A stretch of 50,115 nucleotides of DNA from Marinitenerispora sediminis (lineage in GTDB: Bacteria > Actinomycetota > Actinomycetes > Streptosporangiales > Streptosporangiaceae): the NCBI RefSeq assembly GCF_003336425.1, contig NZ_QEIO01000053.1, positions 1 through 50,115 of the forward strand, in the 5' to 3' direction. A program made the position numbers and the translations under genes. Numbering within the stretch: position 1 is the first letter of the stretch; every line of letters begins with the position of its first letter. This document shows, piece after piece, positions 10,196-43,348 of this stretch. The notes beneath the pieces were generated by a model that was not told the origin of the DNA, searched no databases, and saw nothing but the letters and a program-made list of their open reading frames with translations.

Positions 10196-13100
10196 GTGCG
10201 AGGGTCCGTGTCGACACGAGCGACGAACGGCGCAGCCGACGCCACACAAGATGGCCTGGCCGCGCAGGGCGACGCCGCGGAGGGCGCGCCACGGCGGCGC
10301 GCCCAACGATGGGCGCCGCGCAACTGGCGGGTGCGCTCGCGCCTGCTCGCGCTCATCGTCATCCCGACGGTGGCCGCGGTGCTGCTGGGCGGGCTGCGCA
10401 TCACGGAGAACGTGCAGGACACGCTGACCCACGAGCGCATCGAGACGGCGGCCACGCTCGGCGAGGCCATCGTGGACCTGGCCAACGAACTGGGGCGGGA
10501 GCGGCTGCTCACGGCCGCCTACATCGCCGAGTCGCCCAACCCGGCGAACCGCTCCCAGCAGCGCCGGCTGGAGCTGGAGGAGCAGCAGCAGGTCGTCGAC
10601 CAGGCGGTGAACGAGGTCCGCACCGGCGCCCTGGAACTGGGGGAACCCGGCACCGACCTCGCCGGCGACCGGCTCAGCGGCATGCTGACCGCTCTCGACG
10701 GCCTCGGGGCGATCCGCAACGAGGTGGCCGACACCCGTGTCACCGTGCTGCCGGCCGTCACGAAGTACCGGCAGCTCACCAACACGCTGATCGGCTTCAA
10801 CGAGACGATCGCCGAGAACACCGGCGACACCGCGCTGCGCGAGAGCGTGCGGGCCATGACCGCGCTGAGCAAGGCGCGCGACCAGCTCTCCTACGAAGCC
10901 GCGCTCATGCTGCACTCGCTGATGCGCAACACCATGTCCGGTGGCATCCAGGAGGCCGTCGAGAGCACCCGGGCGCGCTACGAGAACGAGATCCAGAACT
11001 TCACCGCCAGCGCCACCGTCGACCAGCGCAAGATCTACGACGACATCTTCAGCGGCCTGGAGGTCAACCGCATGGCGACCATGCGGCTGCGGGTCATGAT
11101 GCGCGTGGACACCGGGCAGCCGCTCACCGGCCTCACCGCCGGCGACGCCCCCGCGGACTACCTGGAGGTGGCCGGCGAGTCGCTGGACCGCATGCAGGAG
11201 GTCGAGGCCGCGCTGTCCGGCGAGGTCCGCCGGCAGGCCGCCGACCTGAAGACGGGCGCCCGCGGCGACGCGCTCGTGGACTCCGGGTTCATCCTGGCGC
11301 TGCTCGCCGCGGTCCTGGTGATGACCCTGCTGGTCGTGCGCTCGATGGTCGGGCCGCTGCGGGCACTGCGCGAGGGCGCGCTGCGCGTCGCCGAGACCGA
11401 GCTGCCGCGGGCCATCGCCCGGATGCGGGAGAGCAGCGCCGGACCGGGGGAGGTGCGGGTCGCCCCCGTCGGGGTGGACTCCTCCGACGAGATCGGCGAG
11501 GTCGCGCGCTCCTTCGACGAGGTCCACCGGGTGGCCGTCCGGCTGGCCTCCGACGAGGCCGCGCTGCGCAGCAACGTCAACGCGATGTTCGTGAACCTGT
11601 CCCGGCGCAGCCAGACCCTGGTGGAGCGGCAGCTCCGGCTGATCGACGGCCTGGAGCAGAGCGAGCAGGACTCCGACCGGCTCGGGGACCTCTTCCAGCT
11701 CGACCACCTCGCCACCCGCATGCGGCGCAACAACGAGAACCTGCTGGTCCTCTCCGGGCAGGACAACGCGCGCAAGTGGGCGCAGCCCATCCCGCTGGTC
11801 GACGTGCTGCGGGGCGCGCTCTCCGAGGTCGAGCAGTACGAGCGGGTCAACGTCCGGGCGCCGTCGCACATCTCCGTGCTCGGCCGGCCGGTCAACGACG
11901 TCATCCACCTGGTGGCCGAGCTGGTGGAGAACGCCACCTCCTTCTCCGCGCACGACACCCAGGTCTCGGTCACCGCCCGCGCGCTGGAGAGCGGCGAGGT
12001 GATGATCGAGGTCTCCGACAGCGGCATCGGCATGCCCCCGGAGGAGATCGAGGCCGCCAACGAGCGGCTGGCCAAGCCTCCGGTGATCGACGTCGCCGTC
12101 TCCCGGCGCATGGGCCTGTTCGTGGTCGGCCGCCTGGCCGCCCGGCACGGGATCCAGGTGCGGCTGCGGCCCGCCCACAACGGCGGCGTGACCGCGCTCG
12201 TCGCACTGCCGGCCGACCTGCTCATCAGCCCGGTGGACTCCGCCGCGCCGCCGGCCCTGGGCACCGGGCGCGGCGGCGTCCCCGACACCTACGCGGAGGC
12301 GACGGCGGCGTTCGCCGCCAACCCGGCTCCCTCCGACCCCGCGGACGTGTGGCAGGCGCCGGCGGCCGGCGACCGGCCGTCCTGGCAGCGCGAGACGCCC
12401 TCCGGGCTCCCCAAGCGCAACGGCCAGGCGCGCCGCGGCGAGGAGGCGCCGCCGGAGCACCCGCCGAGCGGGCAGGACCTGTGGGGCGACACCGGCTGGC
12501 TGCGGCCCCAGGACCCGGAGCCGGGCGCCCCGGCCGCACCCGCCGGGCCCCACGGCGCCGGCTTCCCGCCGCCCGCCGGCGGGCGGCCGCACGCGGGCGA
12601 GGAGCGGCACGACGCCCCCGCCGGGCCGGAGAACCGCGAGGGCTACGGCTCCACCGCCTACCTCTCCCGGCGGCACGGCAGCACGCCCGGCAACCGCACG
12701 GTGGTCCCGCCGAGCCCGGAGTCCAACAGCGAGCCGCTGCCGATATTCGACTCCATCGAGTCCAACTGGTTCCGGCGGCGGTCCGGCCGGCCGGCCGTCA
12801 CCGCACCGGACACCGGCCCCCTGAACATCGTGGACGACCCGCGCCGGGCGCCGCGGGACGGCGCGGAGCGCTCCGGCGGCCGCCCGGCCGGCCTGGACGC
12901 GGCGAAGTGGTCCACTCCCGGCGGTGCCGGATCCGAGACCGAGCGCCCCCGCGCCACGGGAGCGGCGGCGGACCCGAAGTGGGACTCCGAGGCCGACCGC
13001 GGCTGGGAGGCGGCGCGCTCCGCGGCCGAGCCGCTCGCCGGCGGGCTGACCTCCGCGGGCTTGCCAAAACGCGTTCCCAAGGCAAACCTTGTTCCGGGCA

Positions 13101-13237
13101 CGGCTCCCGTGCCGGAGAATTTCAAGCAGATCCCGGCCCGCTCGGCGGACCAGGTCCGGAACCGCTTCTCCAGTTTCCAGCAGGGGGTGCGCCAGGGCCG
13201 GAGTGAGGCCGGCGACCGACGGCCCAAGGAGAAGTAG
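10196..13237 (+). CDS. cvnA: Conservon sensor histidine kinase-like protein (NIT domain)
   Basis: Membrane sensor of a conservon (1013 aa). The first GTG at 10196 is followed by another at 10208 that has GAGGG close upstream; the real start may be the latter. TM1 is at about residues 48-68; a nitrate/nitrite-sensing-type helical extracytoplasmic domain at about 80-355; TM2 at about 362-382 (FILALLAAVLVMTLLVV); HAMP-like linker; then an ATPase domain at about 560-680 with an N box (VAELVENATSFS) and G box (DSGIGMP). No canonical phosphoacceptor HExxxP was recognised. The last 320 residues are Pro/Gly/Arg-rich and disordered. Followed by roadblock, DUF742 and GTPase genes. Confidence 0.85.
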   Translation: MRGSVSTRATNGAADATQDGLAAQGDAAEGAPRRRAQRWAPRNWRVRSRLLALIVIPTVAAVLLGGLRITENVQDTLTHERIETAATLGEAIVDLANELGRERLLTAAYIAESPNPANRSQQRRLELEEQQQVVDQAVNEVRTGALELGEPGTDLAGDRLSGMLTALDGLGAIRNEVADTRVTVLPAVTKYRQLTNTLIGFNETIAENTGDTALRESVRAMTALSKARDQLSYEAALMLHSLMRNTMSGGIQEAVESTRARYENEIQNFTASATVDQRKIYDDIFSGLEVNRMATMRLRVMMRVDTGQPLTGLTAGDAPADYLEVAGESLDRMQEVEAALSGEVRRQAADLKTGARGDALVDSGFILALLAAVLVMTLLVVRSMVGPLRALREGALRVAETELPRAIARMRESSAGPGEVRVAPVGVDSSDEIGEVARSFDEVHRVAVRLASDEAALRSNVNAMFVNLSRRSQTLVERQLRLIDGLEQSEQDSDRLGDLFQLDHLATRMRRNNENLLVLSGQDNARKWAQPIPLVDVLRGALSEVEQYERVNVRAPSHISVLGRPVNDVIHLVAELVENATSFSAHDTQVSVTARALESGEVMIEVSDSGIGMPPEEIEAANERLAKPPVIDVAVSRRMGLFVVGRLAARHGIQVRLRPAHNGGVTALVALPADLLISPVDSAAPPALGTGRGGVPDTYAEATAAFAANPAPSDPADVWQAPAAGDRPSWQRETPSGLPKRNGQARRGEEAPPEHPPSGQDLWGDTGWLRPQDPEPGAPAAPAGPHGAGFPPPAGGRPHAGEERHDAPAGPENREGYGSTAYLSRRHGSTPGNRTVVPPSPESNSEPLPIFDSIESNWFRRRSGRPAVTAPDTGPLNIVDDPRRAPRDGAERSGGRPAGLDAAKWSTPGGAGSETERPRATGAAADPKWDSEADRGWEAARSAAEPLAGGLTSAGLPKRVPKANLVPGTAPVPENFKQIPARSADQVRNRFSSFQQGVRQGRSEAGDRRPKEK

Positions 13238-13263
13238 TGCGCACCGCCAACGTGCCCGCGGAC

Positions 13264-13302
13264 GCGGATCCGGCGTGGGGTAGCTGGATCCGCCGGATCC
13301 GC
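13264..13302 (+). terminator. Inverted repeat after cvnA
   Basis: GCGGATCCGGCG (13264-13275) pairs perfectly with CGCCGGATCCGC (13291-13302) around a 15-nt loop. It lies 26 bp after the cvnA stop and could end most transcripts or set the cvnA/cvnB ratio. There is no T-run. Confidence 0.5.
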
Positions 13303-13331
13303 GATCCGCGCGAACCGCCCGCCGAAGATCA

Positions 13332-13359
13332 CGGATGAGCTATGAATTAGCATCATCCG
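13332..13359 (+). promoter_or_regulatory. Second hairpin upstream of cvnB
   Basis: CGGATGAGCTA pairs with TAGC-A-TCATCCG (11 pairs, one bulged A, 5-nt loop TGAAT). This patch is unusually AT-rich for the window. TTGGACA follows at 13366 but no well-spaced -10 was found, so a separate cvnB promoter is only possible. Confidence 0.35.
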
Positions 13360-13467
13360 CACTTCTTGGACAATGATCCCCAATAAAGTCACTCACGATG
13401 AAATCTTGGCTTTTGGCCGGCTCCGAACCGCACGGCCATGCGAAGGCTGGGACCGACAGGAGAGCAG

Positions 13468-13869
13468 ATGAATCAACCGGTGAATGAGCTCAACTGGCTG
13501 ATCACTGACTTCGCCAACCGTGTACCCGACGTCGCGCACGCGATCGTCGTATCGGCGGACGGGCTGCCACTGGCCGCCTCGGCGGGGTTCCCCACCGACC
13601 GGGCCGACCAGCTCGCCGCGATCGCGTCGGGTCTGTCCAGCCTGACCCAGGGCGCCGCCCGGGTGTTCGAGGGCGGAGCCGTCGCGCAGACCGTGGTCGA
13701 GATGGAGCGCGGCCTGCTGCTGATCATGGCGATCAGCGACGGGTCGTGCCTGGCGGTGCTGGCCGCCGCCGAATGCGACCTCGGTCTCGTCGCCTACGAG
13801 ATGACGCTGCTCGTGGACCGGGCGGGACGGGCGCTGACTCCGGCAGCGCGCACCTCGGGAATCCACTGA
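13468..13869 (+). CDS. cvnB: Roadblock/LC7 domain protein of the conservon
   Basis: A 133-aa roadblock/LC7 (MglB-like) protein, expected to be the GTPase-activating or scaffolding partner of the conservon GTPase. The ATG has AGGAGA 4-5 nt upstream. The sequence fits the family over its full length: NELNWLITDFANRVPDVAHA, then IVVSADGLPLAASAG and the alternating hydrophobic strands VEMERGLLLIMAISDG and CLAVLAAAECDLGLVAYEM. Second gene of the operon, 230 bp after cvnA and 23 bp before the DUF742 gene. Confidence 0.88.
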   Translation: MNQPVNELNWLITDFANRVPDVAHAIVVSADGLPLAASAGFPTDRADQLAAIASGLSSLTQGAARVFEGGAVAQTVVEMERGLLLIMAISDGSCLAVLAAAECDLGLVAYEMTLLVDRAGRALTPAARTSGIH

Positions 13870-13892
13870 CCCACCACCGACAGGAGGAAGTG

Positions 13893-14390
13893 GTGGCACC
13901 ACCTCACGGTAGAGAAGCCGGGAGCGCCTCGTGGTTCGGACAGCATCCCGACGGCGCGCCCCGCGCGGTGCCGGACGGTCCGATCGGCGGTGATGTTCCA
14001 CGCACAGGCCAGCAACCACCAGACCAACAACAACAGCCGGCCGCGAGCGGCGCGCCCAGTTCCCTGGTGCGCCCCTACGCGGTGACGCGAGGTCGGACCA
14101 AACCGCGCTCCCAGCTGCCCATGGAGGCGCTGATCTCCACGACCCTGACGGCGCGCAACGAGTTCGGGATGCTGACGCCCGAGTGCCAGGCGATCAGCGA
14201 CCTGTGCCGGGAGTGGCGCTCCGTGGCCGAGATCTCCGCCCTGCTGCGGATCCCGCTCGGCGTCGCCCGGGTGCTCGTGGCCGACATGTCGGAGCAGGGC
14301 CTGGTCCAGATCAGAACGTCGCTCAACACCGAAGGCCGGCCCAACGCCAACCTGCTTGAAAGGGTGCTCAGTGGACTTCGCAAGCTCTAG
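13893..14390 (+). CDS. cvnC: DUF742 protein of the conservon
   Basis: A 165-aa DUF742 protein, always found between roadblock and GTPase genes in conservons. The start is the GTG at 13893 with GGAGG 5 nt upstream; a GTG at 13890 is adjacent. The first 60 residues are Gln/Pro-rich and disordered. The domain begins at SLVRPYAVTRGRT and shows a winged-helix-like end (ISALLRIPLGVARVLVADMS; LLERVLSGLRKL). It overlaps the GTPase gene by 20 bp. Confidence 0.85.
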   Translation: MAPPHGREAGSASWFGQHPDGAPRAVPDGPIGGDVPRTGQQPPDQQQQPAASGAPSSLVRPYAVTRGRTKPRSQLPMEALISTTLTARNEFGMLTPECQAISDLCREWRSVAEISALLRIPLGVARVLVADMSEQGLVQIRTSLNTEGRPNANLLERVLSGLRKL

Positions 14391-15015
14391 CCCGGCCGAT
14401 GAGGGCGGTGCTGTGGCGAGCGCGATGACGTCGGTCAAGATCGTCGTCGCCGGAGGCTTCGGCGTCGGCAAGACGACGTTCGTGGGTTCCGTCTCCGAGA
14501 TCGTGCCGCTGACCACCGAAGCGGTCATGACCAGCGCGAGCGTGGGCGTCGACGACCTGGCGAAGACGCCGGACAAGCAGACCACCACGGTCGCGATGGA
14601 CTTCGGCCGGGTCTCGCTCGACTCCGACCTCATCCTCTACCTGTTCGGCACGCCCGGCCAGCACCGCTTCTGGTTCATGTGGGACGACCTGGTCAAGGGC
14701 GCGATCGGCGCCGTGGTCCTGGTCGACACCCGCCGGCTCGCCGACTGCTTCCCGGCCATCGACTACTTCGAAGAGGCGCGGCTGCCCTTCATCGTGGCGA
14801 TCAACGGCTTCGACTCCTACTACCCGCACGACGCCGCCGAGGTCCGCGACGCGCTCACGCTCAGCGAGGACATCCCCATCGTGCAGTGCGACGCGCGCGA
14901 CCGCGGCTCCACGAAGGCGACGCTGATCCGGCTGGTGGAGCACGCCATCACCGTCGGCGACACCGCCTCCGCCGGCCAGCCGACCTCCACCGGAGGGCAG
15001 ACCTCGTGGAGGTAG
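14371..15015 (+). CDS. cvnD: Conservon ATP/GTP-binding protein (small GTPase-like)
   Basis: Ras-like GTPase of the conservon (214 aa). The GTG at 14371 lies inside cvnC; AAAGGG precedes it by 7 nt. The P-loop GGFGVGKTTFVGS is near residue 28, LFGTPGQHRF is the DxxG-region equivalent and NGFD replaces NKxD. In conservons this protein, with cvnB as partner, relays signals from the membrane sensor. No cytochrome P450 (cvnE) follows; the operon ends at a terminator. Confidence 0.87.
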   Translation: MDFASSSPADEGGAVASAMTSVKIVVAGGFGVGKTTFVGSVSEIVPLTTEAVMTSASVGVDDLAKTPDKQTTTVAMDFGRVSLDSDLILYLFGTPGQHRFWFMWDDLVKGAIGAVVLVDTRRLADCFPAIDYFEEARLPFIVAINGFDSYYPHDAAEVRDALTLSEDIPIVQCDARDRGSTKATLIRLVEHAITVGDTASAGQPTSTGGQTSWR

Positions 15016-16272: not shown

Positions 16273-17436
16273 TCAGGCCGGGAGCCCCAGGTCGCGGGCG
16301 ATGAGCATCCGCTGCACCTCCGACGTCCCCTCGCCGATCTCCAGGATCTTGGCGTCGCGGTAGAAGCGGCCCACCGGGTAGTCGTTCATGAAGCCGTACC
16401 CGCCGAAGATCTGGGTGGCGTCGCGGGCGTTGTCCATCGCCGCGTTGGAGGCCACCAGCTTGGCGATGGCGGCCTGCCGCTTGAACGGCTCGTCGGCGAG
16501 CATCCGGGACGCGGCGTCGTAGTAGGCCAGCCGGGCGGTGTGCGCGCGGGCCGCCATGTCGGCGATCTTGAACTGGATGGCCTGGTAGCCCCCGATGGTC
16601 CGGCCGAACGCCTCGCGTTCGGCCGCGTAGCGCAGCGACTCGTCCACGCAGCCCTGCGCCAGGCCGACCGCCAGCGCGGCGATCGCGATCCGGCCCTCGT
16701 CCAGGATGCGGAGGAACTGGGAGTAGCCCGCGCCGCGGCGACCGACGAGGTTGGCCTCGGGGACCCGGCAGTCGGTGAAGACGAGTTCGTTGGTGTCGGA
16801 GGCGTTCCAGCCCACCTTGGAGTACTTCTGGCCGACCGTGAAGCCCGGGGTGTCGGACGGCACCAGGATCGCCGAGATCTCGGGGCGGCCGTCCGGGCGG
16901 CGTCCGGTCACCGCCGTCACGGTGGCCAGCGCGGTGATGTCGGTGCCCGAGTTGGTGATGAAGGACTTGGTGCCGTTGACCACCCACGCGCCGTCCACGA
17001 GATCGGCCGTGGTCCGGGTGGCCGAGGCGTCGGAGCCGCCGCCCGGCTCGGTGAGGCCGAACGCGCCGAGCGCCTCGCCGGAGCACAGCCGCGGCAGCCA
17101 CGTCTTCTTCTGCTCCTCGCTGCCGAACCGGTGGATCGGCATCGCGCCCAGCGAGACCCCCGCCTCCAGGGTGATCGCCACCGAGGAGTCCACCCGCGCC
17201 AACTCCTCCAGCGCCAGGCACAGGGCGAAGTAGTCGCCGCCCATCCCGCCGTACTCCTCGGGGAACGGGAGCCCGAACAGCCCCATCCGGCCCATCTTCG
17301 CCACGATCTCGTACGGGAACGCGTCCCGTTCGTAGAAGTCACCGATCACGGGCGCGACCTCGTCTCGGGCGAACTCCTCGACGGTGCGGCGCAGTTGCGC
17401 GTGCTCCGGTGCCAGTCGGTGGTCCATGACGCTCAC
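16273..17436 (-). CDS. Acyl-CoA dehydrogenase (isovaleryl/short-branched type)
   Basis: FAD-dependent acyl-CoA dehydrogenase, 387 aa, full length. The GTG at 17436 overlaps the carboxylase stop (GTGA); an ATG at 17427 is an alternative. Signature motifs are GAFGLTEPGGGSDASATRTT, IQFKIADMAARAHTARL and QIFGGYGF. The base is E369 in GEGTSEVQ. It is the last gene of an operon with biotin carboxylase and carboxyltransferase subunits, which matches branched-chain acyl-CoA (leucine) catabolism: dehydrogenation followed by carboxylation of methylcrotonyl-CoA. HMG-CoA lyase and hydratase genes are not in the operon. Substrate is inferred from context. Confidence 0.88.
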   Translation of the reverse strand: MSVMDHRLAPEHAQLRRTVEEFARDEVAPVIGDFYERDAFPYEIVAKMGRMGLFGLPFPEEYGGMGGDYFALCLALEELARVDSSVAITLEAGVSLGAMPIHRFGSEEQKKTWLPRLCSGEALGAFGLTEPGGGSDASATRTTADLVDGAWVVNGTKSFITNSGTDITALATVTAVTGRRPDGRPEISAILVPSDTPGFTVGQKYSKVGWNASDTNELVFTDCRVPEANLVGRRGAGYSQFLRILDEGRIAIAALAVGLAQGCVDESLRYAAEREAFGRTIGGYQAIQFKIADMAARAHTARLAYYDAASRMLADEPFKRQAAIAKLVASNAAMDNARDATQIFGGYGFMNDYPVGRFYRDAKILEIGEGTSEVQRMLIARDLGLPA

Positions 17437-19811
17437 TCCTCAGCGGTGGCGGACGCCCCCTGCGGACCGGCCGGGGTCTGCGGCGGCTCGGGGGCGATGA
17501 CGGCCAGGATCATGTCCATGGCCACGGCCTGGCCCGGTCGGACCTCCAACCGGGTGACGACTCCGTCGACGGGCGCGGCGACGGCGTGCTCCATCTTCAT
17601 GGCCTCGACCACGACGACTGGGGCCCCGGCGCTCACCCGGGCGCCCGGCTCGACCGGTACGGCGAGGACGGTGCCCGGCATCGGGCTGCGGAGCGTGCCG
17701 TCGCCGGCCGCCGCCGCGGCGCGGGCCGGGGCGAACGCCGGCTCCTCGGCGATCCGCCAGGCGGCGCCCGCCACACCCAGCCACAGGGTGCCCTCGGGGG
17801 CGGTCTCGTGCGGGGCGACACCCGCTCCGGCACCGCCGCGGGCCGCGCGCGCGTACCGCCGGGTGTGCCCGCCGTAGCCCACGTCCAGCGCGCGGCCGCC
17901 GGCCGCGCGGGCGGCCGTGGCCGCGACCACCGGGCCGTCGGCGACCCGCACCTCGTAGTGGTGCGGCCGGCGGGCGTCCCGCCGCACCCGCACCGTCACC
18001 GGCGCGCCGCCCGGGACGCGCAGCCGCCACGGGGTCCACGCCGGTCCGCCGACCCGCCAGCCGTCCGGGACGTCGAACCGGTCGGCGACCGGGCCGGCGG
18101 GCTCCAGCGCGAGCTGGCAGTCCAGGGCCGCCGCCGCGTACACCTCCTCGGGCACGTCACCGGAGCCGGCGAGCCGGGGGCGCAGCCGCTCGGTCAGCCC
18201 GGTGTCCAGCCGGCCGGCCGCCACCTCCGGGTCGCGCAGCAGGCCGCGCAGGAACGCGACATTGGTGGTGCAGCCGAGTAGCGCGTAGCGCCCGAGCGCG
18301 GCGTCCAGGCGGCGCAGGGCCGCCGACCGGTCCGGCGCCCACGCGATGACCTTGGCGAGCATCGGGTCGTAGGCCGAGCCGACGACGGCGCCTTCGGCCA
18401 GCCCGGAGTCGACGCGGACCTCCTCGCCCCGCGGCTCGTCCAGCAGCAGCACCGACCCGCCGGTGGGCAGGAAGTCGCGGGCCGGGTCCTCGGCGTAGAC
18501 CCGCGCCTCCACGGCGTGCCCGGCGAGGCCGACATCGGCCTGGGTGAACGGCAGCGGCTCGCCCATGGCGATCCGGAGCTGGAGTTCGACGAGGTCGATC
18601 CCGCGGTGCCCGCCCACGGTGACGACGGCCTCGGTGACCGGGTGCTCGACCTGCAGCCGGGTGTTCATCTCCAGGAACGCGTAGTCGACGGCATCCGTCC
18701 ACAGGGAAGGGGCCTGTGGCGGTGAGGTGAGGTCGGCGTCGGCTTCACTTGAATCATCGCCTGCGTGGCTGGGAACGCATAGCAGGGGTTCCCCCGGGAC
18801 CTCCGCACCGGCGTGCCCGCCGCCGGTCCCGCCCGGTGGGGCCCCCGCGGTCCCGGAGTCCGCCGGGGCGCTCGCGACGATGAACTCCACCGTGCCCGCG
18901 CCCACGTACCCGCACGCCTTGGCCGCCGCCACCGCGGCCTCGCCCATGGCGGCGCGCTGCGCCGGGGTGAGCAGCGGCGACGGCGCCTCCTCGACGATCT
19001 TCTGGTGGCGGCGCTGCAGGCTGCACTCGCGCTCGCCCAGGTGCAGCACCGCGCCGTGCGCGTCGGCGAGCACCTGCACCTCGATGTGCCGCGGCCGCTC
19101 CACGAACCGCTCCACCAGCAGTGTGTCGGAGCCGAACGCGCCGCGCGCCTCCCGCCGCGCCGCGGCCGCGGCCTCCGGCAGCTCGGCCGGGCCGCGCACC
19201 AGCCGCATGCCCTTGCCGCCGCCGCCCGCCGACGGCTTGATCAGCAGCGGGTAGCCGACGTCGGCGGCGGCCCGCAGCAGTTCGTCGTCGGACATCGGCG
19301 CGCCGTCCCGCTCCGCGAAGCCGGGGAGCAGGGGGACGCCGGCATCGGCCACCGTGCGCTTCGCCCGGATCTTGTCGCCCATCGCCTCGATCGCCTCGGG
19401 CGGCGGGCCGATGAACACCAGGCCGGCTGCCGCGCAGTCCCGCGCGAAGGCGGCGTTCTCCGACAGGAAGCCGTAGCCCGGGTGGACCATGGTCGCGCCG
19501 GTGGCGTGGGCGGCGGCGATGACGGCCGCGCCGTCCAGGTAGCCGGAGGCGCCGCCGTCGTCGCCCACCTGGACGGCGACGTCCGCCGCCCGCACGTGGG
19601 GCGCCCCGGCGTCCGCGGCGGTGTGGATCGCGACCGAGCGCATGCCGAGGCGGCGCAGCGTGCGCATGACGCGCACCGCGATCTCGCCGCGGTTGGCCAC
19701 GAGAACGGTGGTGGTGGCAGCCCCCGTGGCGTGGACGGAGGAGCTCTCCGCGGCGTGGACGGGCGAGCTCTCCGTGGCGTGAACGGACAGACTGGCCTGG
19801 TGCGGTCTCAT
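17433..19811 (-). CDS. Acyl-CoA carboxylase alpha subunit (biotin carboxylase + BCCP)
   Basis: Biotin-dependent carboxylase alpha subunit, 792 aa. After a 30-residue repeat-rich N terminus, the biotin carboxylase begins at VLVANRGEIAVRVMRTL; the ATP-grasp loop KPSAGGGGKGM and FLEMNTRLQVEHPVTE are intact. The biotinyl lysine is K739 in EAMKMEH, in a C-terminal biotin carrier domain. Between VEFI (F310) and FLEMN (F379) there are 69 residues where homologues have about 10, so some 55 residues are inserted in the carboxylase domain. With the neighbouring beta subunit it probably forms methylcrotonyl-CoA carboxylase; propionyl/acetyl-CoA carboxylase is possible. Confidence 0.87.
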   Translation of the reverse strand: MRPHQASLSVHATESSPVHAAESSSVHATGAATTTVLVANRGEIAVRVMRTLRRLGMRSVAIHTAADAGAPHVRAADVAVQVGDDGGASGYLDGAAVIAAAHATGATMVHPGYGFLSENAAFARDCAAAGLVFIGPPPEAIEAMGDKIRAKRTVADAGVPLLPGFAERDGAPMSDDELLRAAADVGYPLLIKPSAGGGGKGMRLVRGPAELPEAAAAARREARGAFGSDTLLVERFVERPRHIEVQVLADAHGAVLHLGERECSLQRRHQKIVEEAPSPLLTPAQRAAMGEAAVAAAKACGYVGAGTVEFIVASAPADSGTAGAPPGGTGGGHAGAEVPGEPLLCVPSHAGDDSSEADADLTSPPQAPSLWTDAVDYAFLEMNTRLQVEHPVTEAVVTVGGHRGIDLVELQLRIAMGEPLPFTQADVGLAGHAVEARVYAEDPARDFLPTGGSVLLLDEPRGEEVRVDSGLAEGAVVGSAYDPMLAKVIAWAPDRSAALRRLDAALGRYALLGCTTNVAFLRGLLRDPEVAAGRLDTGLTERLRPRLAGSGDVPEEVYAAAALDCQLALEPAGPVADRFDVPDGWRVGGPAWTPWRLRVPGGAPVTVRVRRDARRPHHYEVRVADGPVVAATAARAAGGRALDVGYGGHTRRYARAARGGAGAGVAPHETAPEGTLWLGVAGAAWRIAEEPAFAPARAAAAAGDGTLRSPMPGTVLAVPVEPGARVSAGAPVVVVEAMKMEHAVAAPVDGVVTRLEVRPGQAVAMDMILAVIAPEPPQTPAGPQGASATAEE
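18690..18880 (-). other. In-frame insertion inside the biotin carboxylase domain
   Basis: This stretch encodes about 55 extra residues, first Gly/Pro/Ala-rich and then a more ordered part (CVPSHAGDDSSEADADLTSP). Its DNA is less GC-rich than the gene around it (CACTTGAATCATCGCC near 18748) and contains the inverted repeats CCACAGG-7-CCTGTGG (18698-18718) and GGGAAC-11-GTTCCC. This looks like a small mobile or repeat-derived insertion kept in frame. Confidence 0.5.
19725..19796 (-). repeat. Three 24-bp tandem repeats at the carboxylase N terminus
   Basis: Units at 19725-19748, 19749-19772 and 19773-19796 (the last diverged at its end) encode repeats of VHATESSP/VHAAESSS type. They lie before the conserved biotin carboxylase start, so the only effect is a variable N-terminal tail. 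Unit number could vary between strains. Confidence 0.75.
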
Positions 19812-40762: not shown

Positions 40763-41821
40763 ATGCGGATGCCGAGCCCCCGCCTGTGGATTCCCCCCGC
40801 CGCGGCCGGGGCGGCCGGCGTCGCGGTCCTCGCGGTGCTCACCGCCACCGGGGCCGTCGAGTGGGTGGCCGCCGTCCAGCTCCTCGTGCTGTGGGGCCTG
40901 GCGCTGGCCGTCGGCCTGCTGCTGCTCGTCGTGCGGCGCGTCAGCCGCAACGTCGACCGGCTCGGCCGCCGGCTGGAGCACTACCACAAGTCGGCGGCCA
41001 GCGAGGGCGGTATCGCGCAGCGGCTGGAGTCCATGAACCGGATGCTGCGCCTGGTCCGCGACAACGACGTGCCCTCCCTGCACGCCGACGCCCGCAAGCT
41101 GGGTGCCCGGCTGGTCGAGGAGCAGCGCGGCCGGTTCGACCGCCTCACCGCGCACGTCACCGACCAGGGCCGCCGCGACTACCAGCAGCAGGTCGCCGAG
41201 CGCGAGCTGCGCGACTTCGTGGACCCGGACCGCTTCATGCCGGCGCTGCGGGGCTGGGCGGCCTCGCCGGACGTGCTGTGCCTGCTGGTCGAGAAGATCC
41301 GGGAACGCCGGCCGGGCCTGGTGGTCGAGTGCGGCAGCGGGGCGTCGAGCGTCTGGCTCGGGCACGCACTGCGCCGCGTGGGCGAGGGCCGGCTGGTCGC
41401 CTTGGAGCACGACGAGCGCTACGCCGAACTCTCCCGCGACCTCGTGGCCGCGCACGGCCTGGCCGACCTGGTGGAGGTCCGCTACGCGCCGCTGCGCCCC
41501 TGGCCGCCGGCCCGCGACGACGCGCAGGCCGCCGACGAGCGGGAGCGGCAGCCCTGGTACGACCTGGACGCGATCGCCGACCTCACCGGCATCGACCTTC
41601 TCTTCGTGGACGGCCCGCCCGGCGGCACCGCCCCGCTGGCCCGCTACCCCGCCGGCCCGGTCCTGCTGCCGCGCTGCTCACCGCGCGCCGTCGTACTCCT
41701 GGACGACACGATCCGAAAGGCCGAGCAGGAAACGAGTGACCGCTGGCTGGCCGACCACCCGGAGTTCGAGCGCGTGACCGTCGCGACCGAGAAGGGCACG
41801 CACATCCTCACGCGCAAGTGA
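40763..41821 (+). CDS. Membrane-anchored coiled-coil methyltransferase-like protein
   Basis: A 352-aa protein; the ATG has GTGGAGG about 7 nt upstream. Residues 10-60 hold two membrane segments (AAAGAAGVAVLAVLTATGA and LLVLWGLALAVGLLLLVV). A coiled region of about 100 residues follows (RLESMNRMLRLVRDNDVPSL). The C-terminal half is a class I SAM methyltransferase fold: VVECGSGASSVWLGHAL, VALEHDERYAEL and LLFVDGPPGGT. Gene products like this act on surface glycans in some bacteria, but the substrate here is unknown. Confidence 0.75.
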   Translation: MRMPSPRLWIPPAAAGAAGVAVLAVLTATGAVEWVAAVQLLVLWGLALAVGLLLLVVRRVSRNVDRLGRRLEHYHKSAASEGGIAQRLESMNRMLRLVRDNDVPSLHADARKLGARLVEEQRGRFDRLTAHVTDQGRRDYQQQVAERELRDFVDPDRFMPALRGWAASPDVLCLLVEKIRERRPGLVVECGSGASSVWLGHALRRVGEGRLVALEHDERYAELSRDLVAAHGLADLVEVRYAPLRPWPPARDDAQAADERERQPWYDLDAIADLTGIDLLFVDGPPGGTAPLARYPAGPVLLPRCSPRAVVLLDDTIRKAEQETSDRWLADHPEFERVTVATEKGTHILTRK

Positions 41822-41943: not shown

Positions 41944-43140
41944 CTACCGCTGTGCCACCGCCGCTCCGGGGCGGCGCAGGGGCTGTGACGGGGAGTCGAC
42001 CCAGAGCACCTGGTCGCCTTCGGGGGTGACGGTGAGCCCGAGCCGGTCGCGCCCGGGGCGGCCCGCCCGCTGCCAGGCCGACCAGGCCGCGCCGATCTCG
42101 GTCCACAGATCCCGGGGGCCGCGTACCTTGGCCTCCCAGGCGTCCTCGGCGGGCGAGTACTCGCCCAGCGCCCACGATCCCGTCCCCGTGCCGCGGTCGA
42201 AGACGTACACGGATGCTTCGCCGGAGTCGTCGGCCGCTTCGTAGGACGCGAAATCCACGCCCGGCACGAGGTGTCCCACCACCAGCCGCCATCCCTCGTC
42301 GCGGTGGGCGATCCACCGGGGGTTCGTCCTGGTGCGCCTCGCCACCGCGGTCGGATCGTCTTCGTTCACGTACTCGCGCCATTCGCCGAAGGGCGACCGG
42401 GAGCGTTGCGACCGCAGCATCATGAAGTCGGCGTTACCCACGAACCGCCCGGACGCGCTGCCGTCATGGGCCCGCACCAGCCGCAGCAGGACGCCCGGCG
42501 CGAACCACGTCGACCACGGGGTGACGATCACCCCGCCGGGACGGACCTGCTCGATCCACGCGGCGGGGACGTCATGGGCGGCGACGGTGGCCAGCAACCG
42601 GTCATAGGGAGCGTCCTCCGGCACACCGCGGACGCCGTCGCCGACCACCAGGCGCGGCCGGTAGCCCAGCTCGGCGAGGGCTGTGCGAGCACCCTCGGCC
42701 ACCACCGGGTCGACCTCGATGGAGATGACGTGCTCGGCGCCGAGCCGCTCGCACAGCAGCGCCGTGTTGTAGCCGGTGCCGGTGCCGATCTCCAGTACCC
42801 GGAGCCCGGCGTCGGCGTCGAGTGCCTGGAGCATCGCCACCACCAGGGAGGGTTGGGAGATGCTGGAGGTGGCCAGCCGGCCCCACCCGTTCCCACCGGC
42901 GGGCGCGCCGTCGTCGACCTGGGTGATGAGGGACCAGTCGGCATCCGCCCACGTCGCGTACTCGGGATCATCGCGGGTGACGGGGCGGTACCAGCCCGGC
43001 CGGTCACGCGACGACACCCACACGGTGTCGGGAACGAACAGCGCCCGCGGCACCGTGAGGAGCGCGCGGTGCCAGGCCGGATCGGTGACGGCGCCGAACG
43101 AGGTGAGCGCCTCGGCGAGCCGTGCCCCGGGGTTAGGCAT
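41944..43140 (-). CDS. PIMT-like O-methyltransferase, candidate aspartimide-forming maturase
   Basis: A 398-aa homologue of protein-L-isoaspartyl O-methyltransferase. The ATG at 43140 follows AGGTGAGG; a GTG at 43146 overlaps the peptide stop (GTGA). The catalytic Ser/Thr region is SSISQPSLVVAM (residues 92-103, compare QTISQPY in PIMT) and SAM motif I is VLEIGTGTGYNTALL. Housekeeping PIMT is about 210 aa; here a roughly 170-residue C-terminal extension follows, as in the RiPP-associated enzymes that methylate Asp to make aspartimide. It is encoded 2 bp after a 46-residue Asp-Gly peptide, with no cyclase or ATP-grasp gene near, so it may be the sole maturase. A repair role is the alternative. 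Confidence 0.8.
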   Translation of the reverse strand: MPNPGARLAEALTSFGAVTDPAWHRALLTVPRALFVPDTVWVSSRDRPGWYRPVTRDDPEYATWADADWSLITQVDDGAPAGGNGWGRLATSSISQPSLVVAMLQALDADAGLRVLEIGTGTGYNTALLCERLGAEHVISIEVDPVVAEGARTALAELGYRPRLVVGDGVRGVPEDAPYDRLLATVAAHDVPAAWIEQVRPGGVIVTPWSTWFAPGVLLRLVRAHDGSASGRFVGNADFMMLRSQRSRSPFGEWREYVNEDDPTAVARRTRTNPRWIAHRDEGWRLVVGHLVPGVDFASYEAADDSGEASVYVFDRGTGTGSWALGEYSPAEDAWEAKVRGPRDLWTEIGAAWSAWQRAGRPGRDRLGLTVTPEGDQVLWVDSPSQPLRRPGAAVAQR

Positions 43141-43142
43141 CC

Positions 43143-43283
43143 TCACCTGCCGGGATTCTGGCCATCGCCGCCCTGGGAGGGGAAGCCCTCCGAACCGTGG
43201 GCGTTGGGCTTGCTTCCGTCGCTACCGGCGCTGCCCCCCGATCCGCTGTCGCGGGGCTTGTCCTGGTTCTCATGACGACCCAT
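43143..43283 (-). CDS. Candidate RiPP precursor peptide (imiditide-like)
   Basis: A 46-aa peptide with a strong ribosome site (GGGAG, 7 nt before the ATG). It starts MGRHENQDKPRD and is rich in Gly, Ser and charged residues; it has no Cys. Aspartates stand in aspartimide-prone contexts: D12-S13, D22-G23, D40-G41. The stop is 2 bp from the methyltransferase ATG, a tight coupling. Its promoter at 43320-43348 is one of the better ones in the window. Together these suggest the substrate of the neighbouring enzyme. No leader/core boundary can be set from sequence, and no family was recognised. Confidence 0.6.
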   Translation of the reverse strand: MGRHENQDKPRDSGSGGSAGSDGSKPNAHGSEGFPSQGGDGQNPGR

Positions 43284-43319
43284 CTTGCTGCTCCCGGTGC
43301 CGGGGGACGAGACGGCATG

Positions 43320-43348
43320 ATCGTAATCGTATGGTCGCGGAGCGTCAC
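43320..43348 (-). promoter_or_regulatory. Promoter of the peptide/methyltransferase operon
   Basis: On the minus strand GTGACG (43348-43343), a 17-bp spacer and TACGAT (43325-43320) make a good vegetative sigma promoter. A second TACGAT (43331-43326) overlaps the spacer. The start would be near 43313, giving a leader of about 30 nt before the peptide ATG. Confidence 0.6.

Follow-up and report, generated by a model that had tools for sequence, protein, structure and literature searches.

A stand-alone gene pair resembling the imiditides, with two conserved Asp-Gly units in the precursor peptide and an adjacent PIMT-type methyltransferase

The closest described systems are the imiditides, or type I pamtides, a class already published (PMC10787088, PMC13001092) with about 1,400 mined members. 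Its stand-alone pairs NmaA-NmaM of Nonomuraea maritima and SpaA-SpaM of Streptomyces sparsogenes have been shown to give the +14 and -18 Da species (PMC13001092, PMC10787088). These systems consist of two genes and no cyclase: the precursor, a linear peptide of about 45 amino acids with much Gly, Pro and Asp and no Cys, is encoded directly before a PIMT homologue that has a C-terminal domain and WXXXGXP, the latter named as a motif of RiPP-associated PIMTs (PMC13001092). The RiPP PIMT systems characterised so far have a single modified Asp per peptide (PMC13001092). The cysimiditides or type II pamtides (FcaA-FcaM, TceA, NalA), common in Nocardiopsis, are likewise made of a stand-alone precursor and its PIMT-type Asp O-methyltransferase (PAMT), but they need a zinc-binding tetracysteine hairpin; the graspimiditides (group 13 graspetides such as fuscimiditide and amycolimiditide) use the same PAMT family and an Asp-Gly site, but depend on ester rings and on an ATP-grasp enzyme. 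As for protein repair, the canonical PIMT is a single domain of ~210 residues, and the Thermotoga maritima PIMT (1DL5) has a PIMT domain plus a C-terminal domain and no precursor peptide partner described in the literature covered.

The locus that we compare with these systems lies in a window (the whole stretch of 50,115 nucleotides that was analysed) and is formed by two minus-strand genes with the following features:

43320..43348, minus strand: promoter, with -35 GTGACG at 43348..43343, 17 bp spacing and -10 TACGAT at 43325..43320
43291..43295, minus strand: ribosome-binding site GGGAG, 7 nt 5' of the peptide ATG, assigned from the sequence
43143..43283, minus strand: precursor peptide of 46 aa with twin Asp-Gly, ATG at 43283 and stop at 43143, assigned with a profile of relatives
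43218..43220, minus strand: Asp22 codon in the first DG unit SDGSKP, invariant in 24/24 precursors; probable aspartimide site
43164..43166, minus strand: Asp40 codon in the second DG unit GDGQNP, invariant in 24/24 precursors; candidate second aspartimide site
41944..43140, minus strand: PAMT of 398 aa, assigned by PF01135 (6e-32) and the PIMT fold
42772..42798, minus strand: SAM-binding motif I VLEIGTGTG, near-invariant across 99 relatives
42055..42075, minus strand: WQRAGRP, the WXXXGXP motif (residues 356-362), inside the C-terminal extension
41944..42402, minus strand: C-terminal extension (residues ~247-398), proposed substrate-recognition domain

The peptide stop and the methyltransferase ATG at 43140 are 2 bp apart, and an alternative GTG start at 43146 would add two residues to the enzyme and overlap the peptide stop. 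A preliminary description of this DNA had proposed the promoter GTGACG-17-TACGAT, the ribosome site, the 46-residue peptide and the adjacent PIMT homologue; the promoter sits as stated there, and the remaining elements were correct in all points checked. Comparison supports the promoter as well, since its pattern is kept in relatives: 25 of 32 relatives have TGAC-18-TA(C/G)nnT at 55-71 nt 5' of the start codon, where Markov shuffles predict 0.12 of the 32 by chance, and of 42 other stand-alone precursors 5 have the same pattern. Relatives also have a purine-rich ribosome site at the same place as GGGAG. The promoter looks like one of the housekeeping-sigma type, and from its conservation it seems that the two genes form a self-contained transcription unit. 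Among 25 neighbourhoods, only the methyltransferase is common to more than a few, an HTH-like protein is seen in just 4 of them, and no conserved protease, transporter or regulator was found beside the pair. A convergent class I methyltransferase that ends at 41821 was rejected as a possible partner, since it is on the opposite strand and is not kept beside the pair. A 71-aa ORF (43348..43133) overlapping the peptide was set aside, as the other frame is the one that carries the conserved peptide.

The window peptide, MGRHENQDKPRDSGSGGSAGSDGSKPNAHGSEGFPSQGGDGQNPGR, has neither Cys nor Thr and contains D12-S, D22-G and D40-G. We did not take its twin DG alone as evidence, given that two DG in one peptide of such composition are within chance (P = 0.28). 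It has no match in Pfam or NCBIfam, and against a profile of its relatives, in which it was itself included, it scores E = 1.5e-21, with relatives matched down to E about 2e-20. Built from eight precursors, this profile was searched in 343 genomes of the family and picked out 37 places, spread over 26 genomes from 11 genera; in 347 genomes of the order, the matches came from 28 genomes and 13 genera, none of them outside that family, and a class-wide draw of 395 genomes gave only one borderline match beyond it. Apart from a few decayed copies, the recovered and assessable precursors lie directly 5' of a methyltransferase relative, with a stop-to-start distance of about -6 to +9 nt. The identities of peptide and enzyme in the twin-DG set are correlated (r = 0.45), a value reached in 0 of 2000 shuffles.

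In 24 distinct precursors, H4, G16, D22, G23, H29, G30, D40 and G41 are all invariant, so that the conservation of Asp-Gly positions which the preliminary description had asked to be looked for is indeed present at D22-G and D40-G. Its third aspartate fared less well: D12, like D8, is retained in 23 of the 24, and the residue after it may be Ser, Thr, Gly or Ala, which makes D22 and D40 the likelier modification sites. The peptide pN/pS has a median of 0.66, with the closest pairs at 0.0 to 0.69, and the constraint is therefore real but moderate. The precursors of the clade have a median of 45 aa with Gly 24%, Pro 11% and Asp 13%, and a mean net charge of -3.5 (-0.5 in the last ten residues); none of the 24 has Cys, and the two CXXCXGXG motifs of the cysimiditides are therefore missing. 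The clade has an N-terminal M-x(1-5)-H in common with most other stand-alone precursors, including three in the window's genome.

Regarding the methyltransferase, the PF01135 match covers residues 92-244 of the 398, and TIGR04188, the model for graspetide-associated methyltransferases, gives 330 bits, below its curated cut-off of 380. An AlphaFold2 model, made with the 48 window and locus sequences as input alignment, has a mean pLDDT of 94.7; its residues 1-247 match repair PIMTs with Z about 22-27, and T. maritima PIMT aligns with residues 4-386 (Z 26.1, 5.1 A, 282 residues), hence with the C-terminal domain included; the window enzyme is longer by about 80 residues. The modelled C-terminal part has the order strand-helix-four strands-helix, the one reported for the C-terminal domain of RiPP-associated PIMTs (PMC10787088), and W356 and P362 are invariant in the 48-sequence alignment, with G360 nearly so. 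Thus, the C-terminal extension, which the preliminary description had wanted compared with PIMT-like RiPP enzymes, turned out to contain WXXXGXP and to align with the C-terminal domain of the T. maritima enzyme. The N-terminal domain is closest to repair PIMTs among solved structures, as it would be if the methyltransferase were a long-tailed protein-repair PIMT and the small ORF a leader or upstream ORF without any role as a product. We nevertheless consider this highly improbable, given the strict pairing and the amino-acid conservation of the peptide, the presence of WXXXGXP and of a second domain not found in the canonical repair enzyme, and the fact that the window's genome encodes six more full-length members of this enzyme family, which makes seven divergent copies in all.

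The two genes, the linear Gly-, Pro- and Asp-rich precursor of ~45 aa without Cys, the conserved Asp, the C-terminal domain of the enzyme, WXXXGXP and the lack of a cyclase file the window pair, by these shared features, as a member of the imiditides or type I pamtides. The imiditide-like pathway put forward in the preliminary description is thus supported by comparison, although as a member of a published class and not as a discovery. Several differences from NmaA and SpaA should be kept in mind: instead of one modified Asp, the window clade has two invariant Asp-Gly; the modified Asp is followed by His in NmaA, where the window peptide has Gly; and the clade precursors are neutral to acidic, without the basic tail. 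Recognition of NmaA and SpaA depends on charged precursor residues, and given the acidic clade precursors and their -0.5 tails this charge-based recognition may not apply as such.

Lanthipeptide, lasso, YcaO and RiPP ATP-grasp genes are all missing among the predicted window genes as searched with Pfam, which agrees with the earlier statement that no cyclase or ATP-grasp gene is nearby; the sole ATP-grasp fold in the window is a biotin carboxylase (17433-19811), 22 kb off. The peptide might also be modified by an enzyme encoded elsewhere in the genome, the methylation being an auxiliary step of another RiPP class, as happens with the graspetide, lanthipeptide and lasso PIMTs, which act after a cyclase, and some tree relatives do adjoin ATP-grasp-like genes (a label given by sequence inspection). 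However, the window peptide lacks the Cys or Thr for lanthionine or Thr-Asp ester rings, the pair has no conserved neighbour, and the ATP-grasp-linked enzymes, so labelled by inspection, form a separate group of the tree, so we regard such an auxiliary role as hardly credible. We also think it very unlikely that the methyltransferase has another protein as its substrate, with the peptide as its partner or regulator, as proposed for FHA-associated PAMTs. In the wider family, some enzymes lack a recognised precursor alongside, as a regulatory role of the peptide would allow, but the invariant residues of the peptide include both chemically favoured Asp-Gly sites and two stand-alone relatives modify their own peptide (PMC13001092). 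A two-gene imiditide or type I pamtide pathway very probably offers the best account of the pair.

By analogy with the known members, this two-gene pathway would start from the single promoter, giving a translationally coupled mRNA for the linear, Cys-free precursor and the PIMT-related methyltransferase, whose C-terminal domain would recognise the unmodified linear peptide. With SAM, the enzyme would then place a methyl ester on the Asp side-chain carboxylate in the Asp-Gly units of the precursor, and the ester would be spontaneously converted to aspartimide through attack by the amide of the next Gly, with hydrolysis presumably leading mainly to isoaspartate.

In a tree of 99 methyltransferases, the window enzyme belongs to a clade of 27 with 100/100 support, within which all intact precursors of normal length contain two DG units. 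The neighbouring lines have one DG and then an HGGGGEKTG tail, with further twin-DG members (L046, L057 and L051) amid the single-DG lines, and overall the precursor type tracks the enzyme tree (34 label changes vs. 63.1 in shuffles). Two contracted precursors, of 28 aa in L147 (MRSGKHGDQDVPRDGGKGRGGDGQDPNK) and 26 aa in L162 (MGGHENPDVPRDSGRGSDGDGQDPNK), retain one unit and have lost the HG spacer, each beside a near full-length enzyme, and since these two enzymes are at different, supported positions of the clade, the contractions were independent. In L126, which is near L147, a stretch of 17 bases, GGCGACGGCCAGGACCC, is identical between the two units, as a direct repeat of which L147 has a single remaining copy, and this fits recombination between the repeats. 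We read this as a DG unit that can occur once or twice per precursor. Asp22 is also retained in the single-DG sister precursors with HGGGGEKTG tails, in one of them as Asp-Ser; we infer, more weakly, that Asp22 would be the ancestral site and Asp40 a second one, derived from the duplication of a DGQxP-like unit. What appears to be new, judging from the sequences, is a clade in which the precursors have two DGQxP-like units, though this twin-DG subgroup may already be among the mined precursors listed with PMC10787088.

It is within the same pathway that the two units may have different functions, only one Asp (e.g., Asp22) being modified and the C-terminal DG unit serving for recognition by the enzyme, a reading to which we give somewhat less than an even chance. 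It agrees with NmaA and SpaA, where C-terminal residues are required and one Asp is modified (PMC13001092, PMC10787088), and with the sister precursors, in which a single DG is followed by a different tail. Conversely, the two DG are equally invariant, the units share the 17-nt direct repeat in L126, the contracted natural precursors retain one unit while losing the HG spacer, and the known recognition tails are basic (the last ten residues of GGGTRGK-type precursors have a mean net charge of +2.1), whereas that of the window peptide is not. Only tentatively, and as a possibility that we would rather doubt than assume, do we propose from the sequences that both Asp22 and Asp40 are modified, one PAMT making two aspartimides per peptide. 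If this were true, expansion or contraction of the DGQxP-like repeat would determine how many sites there are, and the one-unit precursors of L162 and L147 (26-28 aa) would be built-in natural comparisons. In either case, the clade is a natural series of one- or two-unit Asp-Gly precursors with closely related enzymes, whose natural pairs allow the comparison of site choice, aspartimide number and recognition without a basic tail; this makes the clade more useful than the window pair, itself one added member of ~1,400.

The same peptide, which the preliminary description had proposed to look for beside orthologues of the enzyme, is present there, the exceptions being decayed copies and one orphan methyltransferase. 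The peptide is frameshifted in L143 and L052 and has an early stop in L050. The orphan, L041:5962-7128, is 66% identical to the window enzyme with the precursor absent alongside, and is the one exception seen to the pairing of intact copies; its genome, G007, has several other twin-DG pairs and a second peptide copy that precedes a remnant enzyme. In L163 (G228:C23:13409-13501) the first half of the precursor, through the first Asp-Gly, is fused to unrelated sequence, with no methyltransferase within 2.4 kb, and this looks like a remnant. Given all these decayed and odd copies, pairing can be claimed only for cases in which peptide and enzyme both seem intact, and not for every copy. Related peptides were also seen near the opposite ends of a 6.1-Mb contig, at L158 (G021:C1:11994-12116) and at G021:C1:6129146-6129244, the methyltransferase beside the second being apparently frameshifted. 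Copies are found on plasmids as well: in Streptomonospora litoralis the annotation calls the peptide a hypothetical protein, and in Nocardiopsis flavescens the peptide has no annotated gene. Such copies, together with those in unrelated contexts, fit a mobile cassette.

Some further observations concern the enzymes and the genome. The window methyltransferase has an acidic loop, ADDSGE, and the stretch N-terminal to SAM motif I (residues 92-97) differs between groups: the twin-DG clade has SSISQP there, many proline-rich precursor types have SSASMP and the ATP-grasp-linked enzymes SSxSAP. This stretch may track the substrate type. Elsewhere in the window's genome, L002, L003 and L005 (contigs C399, C432 and C102) are stand-alone pairs of other type I kinds, e.g., MGKHQEKRDHDGQWSGPVPPPTPDDGGSGGGRHERDDQDEE, and L004, L006 and L007 are family enzymes without a recognisable precursor. 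Within the window itself, at 10196-15015, genes for a nitrate-sensor kinase, roadblock/LC7 and ATP-binding proteins lie in a row that resembles an actinobacterial conservon.
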